Below, piece after piece: positions 10,520-47,080 of a DNA stretch of 64,000 bases (position 1 is its first letter; every line of letters begins with the position of its first letter). The stretch spans positions 731,269-795,268 of the forward strand of contig NZ_JACHJQ010000001.1 of NCBI RefSeq assembly GCF_014203735.1. The letters are read 5' to 3'. The notes beneath the pieces were generated by a model. It was not told the origin of the DNA, did no database searches, and was given only the letters and a program-made list of their open reading frames with translations. The position numbers and the translations under genes were made by a program. The DNA comes from Actinophytocola algeriensis (lineage in GTDB: Bacteria; Actinomycetota; Actinomycetes; Mycobacteriales; Pseudonocardiaceae).

Positions 10520-10596
10520 ATGAAGGGGTCCTTCGGCACGGTGGGCGTGATGAAGGGCCCCTTCGTCGCGTTCAACGTGATGAAGGGGCCCTTCAT
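10520..10596. repeat. 30-bp-period palindromic array, locus 1 (3 units)
   Basis: Three cores of form GAAGG-NNN-CCTTC start at 10522, 10552 and 10582, exactly 30 bp apart; the centres are GGT, GCC and GGC. The 17-bp linkers vary but end in a GTGAT-like block. The array fills most of the gap between the sugar operon promoter and the DeoR stop codon, so it lies just downstream of the DeoR gene. Unlike loci 3 and 4 it has no recognisable inverted flanks. Each core can form a short hairpin in RNA from either strand. Confidence 0.85.
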
Positions 10597-10630: not shown

Positions 10631-11425
10631 TCAGGACGCGTTGGCAGCCGTCGCCGCCACGTGCACCATGATCCCCAGTTCCCGCAACGCCTCCAGCTCG
10701 GCGGGATCGGAAGCGTCGTCGGTCACGACGTGCTGGATGTCCTCGGGCGCCACGGTCTGCAACAACGCCTCAGTCCCGATCTTGGTGTGGTCGGCCAGCA
10801 CGATCACCTCGTCGGCGGCCGCCGCCAACGCCCGGTCCACGCCGGCGACGGTCAGGTTCGGCGTCGACAACCCCCTGGCGGCGGTGAGCCCGTTGCCGGA
10901 GATGAACGCCCGGGTCCCCTGCACGGTCGCCAGAGCCTGCTCGGTGGTCCCCCCGACCAGCGCGTGGATGGACCCCCGCAACGACCCGCCGGTCATGACG
11001 ACGTCCACCCCCCGGGCCCCGGCCAGGCCGGTGGCCACCAGCAAGGAGTTCGTCACCACCGTCAGCTCCGCATGCCGGGTCAGCCGGGCGGCGAAGGCCT
11101 GCGTGGTGGTCCCGGCGCCGACCACGATCGCGTCCCCGTCGGAGACCAGGTCCGCGGCCAGCCCGGCGATCGCGGCCTTCGCGTCGGCCGCCACCAGCGC
11201 CTTCTCCGAGTACGTCGGCTCATGCGACAGCCCGCCGGGCAACGCCGCTCCGCCGTGGTGCCGATCGAGCAGCCCCTGTGCGGCAAGGGCGCGCAGGTCC
11301 CGGCGCACGGTGACCTCGGACGTCTCGACCTGGCGCGCGAGTTCGCGCAGGGAGATGGCCCCGCTGGACCGGACGAGATCGAGGATGCGTTGGCGACGTT
11401 CGGCGGCGAACACGAACATGACCAT
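10631..11425 (-). CDS. DeoR-family transcriptional regulator
   Basis: The 264-residue protein has an N-terminal DeoR helix-turn-helix (RRQRILDLVRSSGAISLREL, then TSEVTVRRDLRALAAQG) and a C-terminal DeoRC sugar-phosphate sensor domain (GAGTTTQAFA, VVTNSLLVA, FISGNGLTAARGLSTPN). Such regulators usually repress a sugar-uptake operon and release DNA on binding a phosphorylated intermediate. It lies upstream of, and in the same direction as, the sugar ABC/glycosidase operon, which is the likely target. Two ATG codons (11425, 11419) are close together; the first is used here. Confidence 0.9.
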   Translation of the reverse strand: MVMFVFAAERRQRILDLVRSSGAISLRELARQVETSEVTVRRDLRALAAQGLLDRHHGGAALPGGLSHEPTYSEKALVAADAKAAIAGLAADLVSDGDAIVVGAGTTTQAFAARLTRHAELTVVTNSLLVATGLAGARGVDVVMTGGSLRGSIHALVGGTTEQALATVQGTRAFISGNGLTAARGLSTPNLTVAGVDRALAAAADEVIVLADHTKIGTEALLQTVAPEDIQHVVTDDASDPAELEALRELGIMVHVAATAANAS

Positions 11426-21650: not shown

Positions 21651-21685
21651 TAGCTGTGGGTGCTTTGTCCTCGCCGGACGGGCTT

Positions 21686-21713
21686 CCCCTCCGGCGGCTC
21701 CTCGCCGGAGGGG
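21686..21713 (+). terminator. Hairpin after the binding-protein-like gene
   Basis: CCCCTCCGGCG (21686-21696) pairs perfectly with 21703-21713 around a 6-nt loop, 35 bp after the stop codon. Its right half is part of dispersed repeat family 2. Confidence 0.6.
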
Positions 21714-21775
21714 CAGGTCTCTGGGATGGCTCCCTGGGTTGGCATCTTCGGTTCTTTGGCGAGGGTCGGTCTGCC
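21700..21775 (+). repeat. Dispersed repeat family 2, copy A
   Basis: About 75 bp running from CCTCGCCGGAGGGGCAGGTC to GGCGAGGGTCGGTCTGCC. A near-identical copy (a few substitutions and two small gaps) lies inverted at 35360-35433, and the first 31 bp recur at 27774-27804. It is non-coding and lies in the 3' gap between the binding-protein-like and LysR genes. Confidence 0.8.
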
Positions 21776-21913
21776 TGCCATCCCGTCGACCTCCCTGCGG
21801 GCTATCACACCGGCTCAAGGAGGCGGTTCCGAGTTTTGCTGCCGGTTTTGGTTGTTGGTGCCCCCTTGATCCGGTGTGATCGGGCTTTGCCAGGTCGACG
21901 GGATGGCAGGCAG
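21771..21913. repeat. 143-bp inverted-repeat (MITE-like) element
   Basis: Outer arms are a perfect 22-bp inverted repeat (21771-21792 and 21892-21913, starting CTGCCTGCCATCCCGTCGAC). Inner arms (21804-21820 and 21864-21880) match in 16 of 17 bp. The centre (21821-21863) is T-rich and carries no gene. The shape resembles a miniature inverted-repeat element; no target duplication was identified. Confidence 0.7.
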
Positions 21914-21973: not shown

Positions 21974-22136
21974 GAAGGACCCCTTCGTTGCGTGCGGTGT
22001 GAGGAAGGGCCCCTTCGTTGTGGTCGGCGTGATGAAGGACCCCTTCGTAACGTCCGGTGTGAGGAAGGGCCCCTTCGTTGTGCTCGGCGTGATGAAGGAC
22101 CCCTTCGTAATGCCCGGTGTGAGGAAGGGGTCCTTC
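21974..22136. repeat. 30-bp-period palindromic array, locus 2 (6 units)
   Basis: Six GAAGG-NNN-CCTTC cores start at 21974, 22004, 22034, 22064, 22094 and 22124. Centres alternate ACC, GCC, ACC, GCC, ACC, then GGT. Linkers alternate between GTGAG and GTGAT endings, showing a 60-bp higher-order period. The array ends 32 bp before the LysR stop, between convergent genes. It is the largest of the four arrays. Confidence 0.9.
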
Positions 22137-27714: not shown

Positions 27715-27769
27715 CCGATGGACGGTTGTTGTCCGGTGGGGCGTTCGGCGGGTGGGTGTGCCCTCTGGG

Positions 27770-27804
27770 GGCTCCTCGCCGGAGGGGCAGGTCTCTGGGA
27801 TGGC
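27770..27804 (+). repeat. Dispersed repeat family 2, partial copy B
   Basis: Thirty-five bases, from GGCTCCTCGCCGGAGG to CTCTGGGATGGC, are identical to 21696-21730. Only the first third of the family-2 unit is present; similarity to copy A then stops. Confidence 0.75.
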
Positions 27805-27855
27805 AGGGAGCCCCTTGGTGGTCGGCTTCAGCTGCGTGCTCGGTTGGCCTTCGTG

Positions 27856-28138
27856 TCCTGAAAGACGCTTTCGGGACGTGGGCCCGATGTCATGAAGGGG
27901 TCCTTCATCACATCGGACGTAACGAAGGGGTCCTTCATGACGGTGAGCGCAACGAAGGGGTCCTTCATCGCACCGGGTGTTACGAAGGGGTCCTTCGGGG
28001 CATCCCGCGGGTGGGTGCGGGCGCTGCGCGCCCGCGCCCGCGTGGCGTGCCTGACCACGTCCGGCATCCGGCGCGGGGCAAGAAACACGGCTCGACCACC
28101 AGGGATCCAGGCTCAACGCCCCGAAGGCGCCTTCAGGG
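27856..28138. repeat. Palindromic array locus 3 (4 units) with inverted flanking motifs
   Basis: Cores GAAGG-GGT-CCTTC start at 27894, 27924, 27954 and 27984, exactly 30 bp apart and all with the same centre. The left flank is TCCTGAAAGACGCTTTCGGG at 27856; the right flank at 28118-28138 reads in inverse orientation as CCCTGAAGGCGCCTTCGGGG. The segment between the array and the right flank (28000-28117) is GC-rich and non-coding. It lies at the 3' end of the Lrp gene. Confidence 0.8.
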
Positions 28139-35359: not shown

Positions 35360-35433
35360 GGCAGACCGATCCTCGCCAAAGAACCGAAGATGCCAACCGG
35401 GAAGCATCCCGGAGACCTGCCCGTCCGGCGAGG
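35360..35433 (-). repeat. Dispersed repeat family 2, copy C
   Basis: On the minus strand this reads as copy A at 21700-21775, from CCTCGCCGGACGGGCAGGTC to GGCGAGGATCGGTCTGCC, with a few substitutions and two short gaps. The flanks (35284-35359 and 35434-35695) carry short internal repeats such as GGAATCG(T/C)CCCGA but no gene. Confidence 0.8.
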
Positions 35434-35695
35434 ACATCTTTGGAATCGTCCCGAGCCCAACCGGCCGTCGAGGGCATCCCTGGAATCGCCCCGAAACCAA
35501 CCGGCAGCCGAGAACACGCGAGGACAACCACAGGCCGCCAACCGAGCCCAGATCAGCTCGCGCGCGCGTTGCCCAACCCCCACCCTATCCCGGGGGCGTC
35601 CCGCCTTGCCAGCTTACCGAACCTCACCGACATTCCCCGCGATGTCGATCTTGCCTGTGGATAACTCGCCGATCTCGCGCCAGCCCTCAAGCCTA

Positions 35696-45931: not shown

Positions 45932-46933
45932 GTGAAACTGAACCGCAGGTCCGCACTCAGCCTCGGCACCGTCGCTACGGCCACTGCCGTGCTCGGTTCC
46001 GCCACCACCACCGCTGCCGCGGCGCCCGCCACGGACACGACCGCCGACCCGGCCCGGCGGGTCGGCCGCGTCTACGCCCGCGCGGTCGAGGCTTCGGGCG
46101 GCACGTGGTCGTCGCTGGTGACCGTCGGCGGCACGACCGCCGTCGAGGCCGGTGCCGACACGGTCGTCGAGGCCTACAGCGTCAACAAGATCGCGGTCGC
46201 CACCGCGGTGCTCGACAAGATCGACCGCGGGCTGCTGACGCTCGACCAGCGCGTCGACGTCACCGCCGACATCGTCATCCAGGACACCGACGGCATCTTC
46301 GCGCTCGACCGCGCCTACCCCAGCTCGATCACCCTCGGCCACGCGATGGCCAACCTGCTCACCGTGTCCGACAACACCGCCGTGCGCCTGTGCGGCCTGG
46401 TGTGCCCGGCGCTGGAGCTGAACGAGATCCTGCGCGGCAAGGGTTTCGTCCACACGCAGGTCGTGCCGGTGACCAACCCGAACCGGTTCTTCCTCGGCCA
46501 GACCACCCCGCGCGAGACGCACACGCTGCTGACGCGGCTCGTTGCCGGTGAGCTCCTGTCGCCGACGTCCACCGACTACCTGCTGAACGTGCTGCGCTCG
46601 ACGTCCGCCTTCGTCGACGGCGTCCGCCTCAAGCTCACCACGCCGGAGCGCCTCCGGGTGGCGACGAAGGCGGGCTGGTTCAACGCGGGCCGCAACGAGG
46701 CGGGCGTGGTGTTCACGGCCGACGGCGCCGCGGGTGCCGTGTACTCACTGTTCGCGGCCGGCCCGTTCACCGGCGACGCGACGGTCAACGACACCGACTT
46801 CGGTGCCACCCACCCCGCACTGCAGGCCAGGCAGAAGCTGGGCCGCGCCCTGTTCGACGCGGTGGAAGCGGCCGCCCCGGCGGCCAAGCGCGTCCAGGCG
46901 ACCCCGAAGTACCGCCCGTCGAACGGCGGCTGA
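45932..46933 (+). CDS. Class A beta-lactamase-like serine hydrolase with altered motifs
   Basis: The 333-residue protein starts with a Tat-like signal (NRRSALSLG). SVNK gives the Ser-x-x-Lys site, SDN is present in LLTVSDNTAVRLCG, but the third motif is KAG (KAGWFNAG) and the omega-loop segment VTNPNRFFLGQTT lacks the usual ExxLN glutamate. Without that Glu, deacylation would be impaired, so it may be a penicillin-binding or esterase-like relative. GTG at 45932 fits a leaderless mRNA (TAGCGT about 9 nt upstream); GTG at 45926 is possible. Confidence 0.8.
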   Translation: MKLNRRSALSLGTVATATAVLGSATTTAAAAPATDTTADPARRVGRVYARAVEASGGTWSSLVTVGGTTAVEAGADTVVEAYSVNKIAVATAVLDKIDRGLLTLDQRVDVTADIVIQDTDGIFALDRAYPSSITLGHAMANLLTVSDNTAVRLCGLVCPALELNEILRGKGFVHTQVVPVTNPNRFFLGQTTPRETHTLLTRLVAGELLSPTSTDYLLNVLRSTSAFVDGVRLKLTTPERLRVATKAGWFNAGRNEAGVVFTADGAAGAVYSLFAAGPFTGDATVNDTDFGATHPALQARQKLGRALFDAVEAAAPAAKRVQATPKYRPSNGG

Positions 46934-46937
46934 CCTG

Positions 46938-47080
46938 TCCTGAAAGACGGAGTCGGGACCGCTGCGATGCCACGAAGGGGCCCTTCGTCACGTTCAACGT
47001 GATGAAGGACCCCTTCGTAACGCCCGGTGCGATGAAGGACCCCTTCATGCCATCAGGCCGTGTCCCGAGCGTCTTCAGAG
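46938..47080. repeat. Palindromic array locus 4 (3 units) with inverted flanking motifs
   Basis: Cores start at 46974, 47004 and 47034 with centres GGC, ACC and ACC, 30 bp apart. The left flank TCCTGAAAGACGGAGTCGGG (46938) and the right flank (47060-47080, inverted: CTCTGAAGACGCTCGGGAC) form imperfect terminal inverted repeats. The right flank supplies the stop codon and final residues of the convergent SGNH gene. The left flank begins 4 bp after the beta-lactamase-like stop. Confidence 0.85.

Follow-up and report, generated by a model that had tools for sequence, protein, structure and literature searches.

Dispersed 30-bp-period palindromes at gene 3' ends of Actinophytocola algeriensis and related genera, candidate two-way transcript-end hairpins

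The palindromic dyad GAAGG-N3-CCTTC occurs in 16 exact copies in the 64-kb stretch of A. algeriensis DNA analyzed here (the window), grouped as 3, 6, 4, and 3, with every spacing between neighboring copies equal to 30 bp. In 100 dinucleotide shuffles of the window the mean was 0.04 copies and the largest count 1. We give about an even chance to the reading that these dispersed, nested palindromes are U-poor, two-way 3'-end hairpins for the adjoining genes, most likely terminators or transcript-end caps. A hairpin A-B-A' would end or cap transcripts arriving from either side, with convergent genes sharing one element; in Actinophytocola the unit would have been amplified into ABABA arrays, probably via slippage or unequal exchange, often beside the modules of a mosaic repeat. 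Observed directly are the repeats, their placement at 3' ends, covariation in a 43-bp form of the unit, and, in sister species, different hairpins in its place behind ppa.

Arrays in the window, abundance and gene context

Array 1 (three dyads at a 30-bp period, 10522..10594) lies in a tandem gap with both neighbors on the minus strand, 36 bp beyond the stop codon of a gene for a DeoR-type regulator (10631-11425, -). Array 2 (six dyads, 21974..22136), the only one covered by the coordinates of the initial annotation, occupies a convergent gap between a periplasmic-binding-protein family gene (+) and a LysR-type regulator gene (-), 32 bp beyond the stop of the latter. Array 3 (four dyads, 27894..27996) is placed 162 bp beyond the stop of an AsnC/Lrp-type regulator gene (-) and faces, directly on its left, a weakly supported + strand gene that has no Pfam match; the next gene upstream is likewise on the + strand. 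Array 4 (three dyads, 46974..47046) lies between a beta-lactamase-family gene (+) and a convergent GDSL lipase gene (-), 40 and 28 bp from their respective stops. The initial annotation had reported 16 copies with intact arms and 30-bp spacing in four gaps, all of which we recovered in place, and had put the arrays at gene 3' ends, mostly between convergent genes, as is the case for three of the four, the array at 10.5 kb being tandem.

The 30-bp spacing, whose persistence elsewhere had been set as a check, holds genome-wide: the A. algeriensis genome (9.73 Mb) contains 215 forward pairs at exactly 30 bp, and the reversed control pattern (the motif read backwards) yields none in the whole genome. 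Arrays reach up to 9 units. Conservation of the arms, a second such check, is likewise seen in the genome, with perfect arms in 62 of 66 interior units (arrays of at least three units) and a single mismatch in the other 4; it is weaker in A. oryzae (17/23 perfect, 6/23 with one mismatch). The linkers do vary, as had been noted: the 87 linkers in this genome's arrays of at least three units comprise 69 distinct sequences.

Within the genus Actinophytocola, pairs are present in four of six genomes (215, 351, 12, and 1), the count of 351 belonging to A. oryzae (G299). Order-wide, at least one pair was found in 25 of 298 genomes, the source genome included (18 in Pseudonocardiaceae, 7 in one other family), a count in which some genomes' single pairs are coding hits (e.g., L024). 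One genus, taken to be Amycolatopsis from the named hits, has 101-147 pairs in seven of ten sampled genomes and 0-2 in the remaining three. Among the matches listed, named genomes hold at least 80 pair loci, from the genera Amycolatopsis, Actinophytocola, Kutzneria, Lentzea, Prauserella, Saccharomonospora, Actinomycetospora, Micromonospora, and a few others. A phage origin was rejected, as viral contigs gave 0 matches, and a known RNA family was rejected on the basis that the window gave no Rfam hit at gathering score. No published description of the element was found by titles and abstracts in open-licence PubMed Central texts, among the matches listed, nor did the element words match as full text there; the accessible portions of PMC6749651, PMC6060812, and PMC13155455 hold nothing specific to it.

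Gene context was determined from our own gene calls on genome stretches. In 1.2 Mb of A. algeriensis, the 23 arrays divide into 12 in convergent and 10 in tandem gaps, with 1 inside a gene and 0 divergent, so that placement, the third check, is not random with respect to genes. The corresponding arrays and pairs number 4 convergent, 4 tandem, and 0 divergent in an Amycolatopsis stretch, and 17, 6, and 0 in A. oryzae. Pooled over these three stretches, 53 arrays or pairs are intergenic, none of them divergent although divergent gaps make up 29-33% of intergenic length, and a further one is inside a gene. A second Amycolatopsis stretch adds 2 convergent, 2 tandem, and 1 in a gene. The 89 outside loci, each with a single exact pair, comprise 45 convergent and 33 tandem cases, 5 inside genes, and 6 at an edge, with none divergent; the distance to the stop has a median of 22 nt in Amycolatopsis (9-62 over groups). 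Single dyads are less strictly placed, with 7 convergent, 7 tandem, and 3 in genes for A. algeriensis, 5 convergent, 1 tandem, and 4 in genes for Amycolatopsis, and 3 convergent, 2 tandem, and 2 divergent for A. oryzae. A promoter or operator role was rejected because no array lies in a divergent gap, yet two of the seven A. oryzae single dyads do. A coding artefact was rejected since only 5 of the 89 outside loci are in genes (L024, L030, L070, L079, L102), Streptomyces and Geothrix hits among them.

Unit anatomy, covariation and sister dyad families

The usual unit in Amycolatopsis and its relatives is a 43-bp A-B-A' hairpin (13 + 17 + 13 bp), whose single stem of 20 bp closes on a 3-nt loop (one example folds at -44.1 kcal/mol). 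Unit A (GAAGG-N3-CCTTC, 13 bp) is itself palindromic and the 17-bp linker B roughly so; therefore A-B-A' forms one hairpin in RNA from either strand, and one element can serve both convergent genes. On either strand, the arrays of the window are predicted to fold more stably than their shuffled versions (z from -3.0 to -7.1, array 2 taken without its last dyad).

Covariation was scored on 80 loci with 72 distinct 43-mers, from which none was dropped and in which coding hits are included. Paired cells amount to 91.6%, the score is 0.396 vs 0.115 for shuffled sets and 0.05-0.08 for slid controls, and 245 cells carry a change on both sides vs 84 in shuffles. All 10 free pairs show two-sided change, a measure that does not exceed shuffles (9.8); the other ten pairs of the hairpin are set by the search pattern and carry no covariation information. 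In the arrays of A. algeriensis many of the N3 and linker pairs expected from the 43-bp form are disrupted, with pairing kept in 377 of 737 variable cells, G.T or A.C in 257, and some other mismatch in 103.

The GAAGG dyad has relatives. A screen for intergenic palindromes (5-bp arms, loops of 1-6) in 1.2 Mb of A. algeriensis ranks GAAGG-N3-CCTTC as the commonest (103 vs 0.4 simulated) and GAAAG-N3-CTTTC second, and at loop 3 the Amycolatopsis screen ranks GAAAG, GAAGG, and CAATG first to third. Same-arm pairs other than GAAGG are found 32 times at 30 bp (25 GAAAG, 6 CAATG, 1 other), and no other spacing in the range 14-80 has more than 5. The 30-bp spacing is thus common to three dyad families, GAAGG-N3-CCTTC, GAAAG-N3-CTTTC, and CAATG-N3-CATTG. 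More generally, intergenic inverted repeats with arms of at least 16 contain a 5-bp self-palindrome in the arm in 18 of 73, 30 of 76, and 11 of 21 cases (three stretches), where 2.3, 2.2, and 0.9 are expected. This fixed geometry across unlike sequences is the feature that the present explanation cannot account for.

Geometry is also what speaks for a DNA-level site, where the dyads would bind a dimeric protein or, as has been reported for BIME-2, gyrase, at positions some three helical turns apart, in places where transcription piles up supercoils. The 13-bp dyads with exact 3-bp centers at 30-bp spacing, arms far more conserved than linkers, and arrays of up to 9 copies all agree with such a site. 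We think it unlikely, though a serious rival. Against it, three dyad sequences with one geometry are not explained by a single sequence-reading protein, and the inner arms of the 43-bp form covary, which a dyad-binding protein would not need.

Gene-end hairpins, strand preference and turnover

Strand preference was examined on the premise that selection on the sense RNA would leave more G.U than A.C on the transcribed strand of hairpins in tandem gaps. Hairpins outside the dyad families behave in this way (84 G.U vs 32 A.C; 49 vs 17 hairpins, p 1e-4), whereas dyad-family hairpins have 14 G.U vs 25 A.C (7 vs 12 hairpins), and the contrast between the two groups has a hairpin-level Fisher p of 0.005. 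The deficit comes mostly from A. algeriensis (6 vs 21), the other three stretches giving 8 vs 4. Sense-strand RNA selection on the dyad family in tandem gaps was tested with no G.U preference seen, a result that fits symmetric two-way use and a DNA-level role alike, and that counts in favor of the protein-binding site described above.

Compared with a canonical intrinsic terminator, the elements share the stable GC-rich hairpin just past the stop. The dyad-family hairpins lack the U-rich tract, with a mean of 1.6 Ts in the 10 nt after the hairpin in tandem gaps vs 2.5 for other hairpins, and they lack the excess of G.U over A.C on the transcribed strand. Streptomyces terminators mapped by Term-seq are long stable hairpins with few Us (in the accessible part of PMC12207403), and hairpin clusters have been proposed as termination units (PMC8355165, likewise from the part available). 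The likeness to such U-poor or clustered terminators, as far as these partial sources go, lies in a hairpin close behind the stop codon and a weak U tract; our elements differ in their dispersed families, nested symmetry, exact 30-bp period, and missing sense-strand preference.

The ppa 3' end permits a comparison of orthologous loci, which came from 30 of the 60 Amycolatopsis genomes searched. Seventeen of the 30 (L240-L256) carry the element, a variant, or a remnant, as 12 exact pairs, 3 single exact dyads, 1 variant, and 1 interrupted element; three of them (L245, L246, L256) belong to a different sequence family. Among the remaining 13, 12 have another hairpin at +6 to +25 (L258-L269), five of these with T-runs of 4-5, and one (L257) has a long imperfect inverted repeat that scored low. 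The 17 loci are those with the most similar ppa, and all keep the element or a remnant. In Actinophytocola, the ppa ends that were read (five of six) all lack a GAAGG dyad and show hairpins or none.

Between two Amycolatopsis stretches with a median protein identity of 94%, a dyad family is present in either genome at 53 of 180 3' flanks and in both at 8, with each flank of a convergent gap counted by itself and those of the second genome left untrimmed at the next gene. Presence/absence turnover of the dyad families between these Amycolatopsis genomes is thus fast. In convergent gaps of an Amycolatopsis stretch (G090; L200-L219), further gene-end hairpin families were observed, e.g., CGTGAGTGGTAAGGACGG..., GTCCTCTGAATGCGG..., and GACGACACGCGTGATC..., which suggests that gene ends are hot spots of hairpin turnover. 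The junction that holds array 4 carries a single 43-bp element in A. oryzae, overlapping the stop codon, and none within 300 bp in the genome G298, where the adjoining gene looks different. In G300 the same junction (L279, behind the GDSL gene) has an unlike tandem repeat, GTTGGACTCGCGGGTTCTGAGT....

Fast turnover also speaks for a largely selfish or neutral repeat, in which template-switch mutation would keep the palindromes perfect, slippage would amplify them, and only gene 3' ends would tolerate them, their presence elsewhere being harmful. Purging alone could yield the 3'-end bias, linker families recur at many separate places within a genome, and, at the candidate places scored, a module pair beside the arrays was found at length in one genome of 60 (see below). 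This reading, too, is a serious rival, but improbable in our view, as elements often lie 10-20 nt beyond the stop, and as the ppa ends either keep the element or a remnant (all 17 of the most similar) or mostly have other hairpins at the same place.

The initial annotation had taken the pattern as a sign of selection on DNA or RNA structure and had named transcript ends and mRNA stability among the possible roles. Covariation in the 43-bp form and the exchange of hairpins at ppa fit selection on structure; template-switch mutation could also keep the pairing, and the claim stands in that qualified form. Its interpretation as a whole is supported in part, having survived its own tests on placement, arms, and spacing. 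Transcript ends would be the best-supported role, with mRNA stability nearly as compatible. An mRNA 3' stabilizer would block 3'-5' exonucleases after termination by another route, e.g., Rho; a position just beyond the stop and a very stable hairpin (the 43-mer cited above) suit it, but it predicts a G.U preference on the sense strand in tandem contexts that is not seen, and as the sole explanation we consider it very unlikely. For the preferred reading as terminators or caps, we infer that transcription ends at the elements and does so in both directions. Against termination stand the lack of G.U preference, the few downstream Ts, and the fast turnover, and also the variable cells that pair in only about half of cases in A. 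algeriensis arrays (377/737) and the Actinophytocola ppa ends without the dyad.

Related repeats and composite modules

Known REP/BIME repeats, of enterobacteria, Pseudomonas, and others, are short, high-copy extragenic palindromes that lie mostly in convergent or unidirectional gaps as singles, pairs, spaced arrays, and mosaics (from the available parts of PMC3733652 and PMC2817692). The GAAGG elements resemble them in being dispersed, abundant palindromes outside genes, chiefly behind gene 3' ends, that occur singly, in regular arrays, and in mosaic composites, and are REP/BIME-like in this broad sense. They differ in having neither tag nor Y1 transposase, in palindromic arms, and in several families of one 30-bp geometry. 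Within 10 bp of 59 arrays or pairs (four genome stretches), GTAG was found at none and CGTC at one, against 2-3% and 9-11%, respectively, at random intergenic places. The Y1 transposase (PF01797) was detected in one of 25 genomes (G046, itself with 0 pairs) and in none of 11 element-rich genomes tested, the E. coli control being positive. In kind, REP/BIME repeats are the nearest system, yet the elements are not filed under REP/RAYT, because these two defining features were tested and neither was found. In Neisseria and Pasteurellaceae, inverted pairs of DNA-uptake signals make gene-end hairpins (PMC1852404, in part); the likeness, as given in that portion, is a repeated genome-wide word that forms a gene-end hairpin as a complementary pair, and the difference is that GAAGG-N3-CCTTC is itself palindromic.

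A tentative and rather doubtful proposal is that the elements form a new class of mobile gene-end repeat, defined by geometry (13/17/13-bp dyads at 30-bp spacing, at least three dyad sequences, Pseudonocardiaceae and a few neighbors), which would be copied by non-RAYT machinery, act strand-symmetrically as hairpin RNA or extruded DNA, and swap with ordinary terminators. The mode of self-copying is something that we infer; should non-RAYT machinery indeed spread these palindromes, this would add a new way in which REP-like repeats arise. The genera concerned are soil actinobacteria known for antibiotics, and the 30-bp arrays might serve as strong terminators in both directions. For Streptomyces, the question of how transcripts end in GC-rich actinobacteria when U tracts are scarce has been discussed (PMC12207403, accessible part), and a symmetric, dispersed hairpin at sites where sister species have others offers many natural replicates for studying it.

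Beyond what had been annotated, the unit is elsewhere a palindrome of palindromes, other sequence families share the 30-bp period, and the arrays are part of a mosaic repeat. This directional composite begins with M1 or M1', continues with M2 (which includes a GAAAG dyad) and the array, and closes with M3; within 120 bp of the 23 arrays in 1.2 Mb, M2 is present at 12 and M3 at 10, the M3 query overlapping one dyad. M1 (27756..27812, +; GTGTGCCCTCTGGGGGCTCCTCGCCGGAGGGGCAGG...) has 28 copies in 1.2 Mb (13 convergent, 15 tandem), a second copy in the window lying left of array 2 (21674..21730, +). M2 (27813..27893, +) stands directly before array 3, includes a GAAAG-ACG-CTTTC dyad at 27860-27872, and has 15 copies in 1.2 Mb (8 convergent, 7 tandem). 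M1' (21799..21882, +) is an inverted repeat with arms of ~20 bp (TATCACACCGGCTCAAGG...CCTTGATCCGGTGTGAT), looking like a MITE; six of its 7 copies in 1.2 Mb are within 350 bp of a GAAGG dyad. M3 (46923..46973, -; GTGGCATCGCAGCGGTCCCGAC...), on the far side of array 4, was counted 11 times in 1.2 Mb with the dyad-overlapping query, at six convergent, four tandem, and one divergent site.

The M1-M2 query gave 19 matches in A. algeriensis, from 14 of 207 candidate places scored. Across 60 genomes, with up to 14 candidate places scored in each, A. algeriensis was the only one in which the pair was found at length. In 7 of the 59 others, from the same family, the query matched short pieces of 31-44 bp that belong to M1 (window 27773-27808, TCCTCGCCGGAGGGGCAGGTCTCTGGGATGG...), so some of M1 could be an older element common to these genomes. 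One M1 match, at window ~35391-35447, has no GAAGG array nearby and adjoins a 40-bp tandem repeat (35421-35516).
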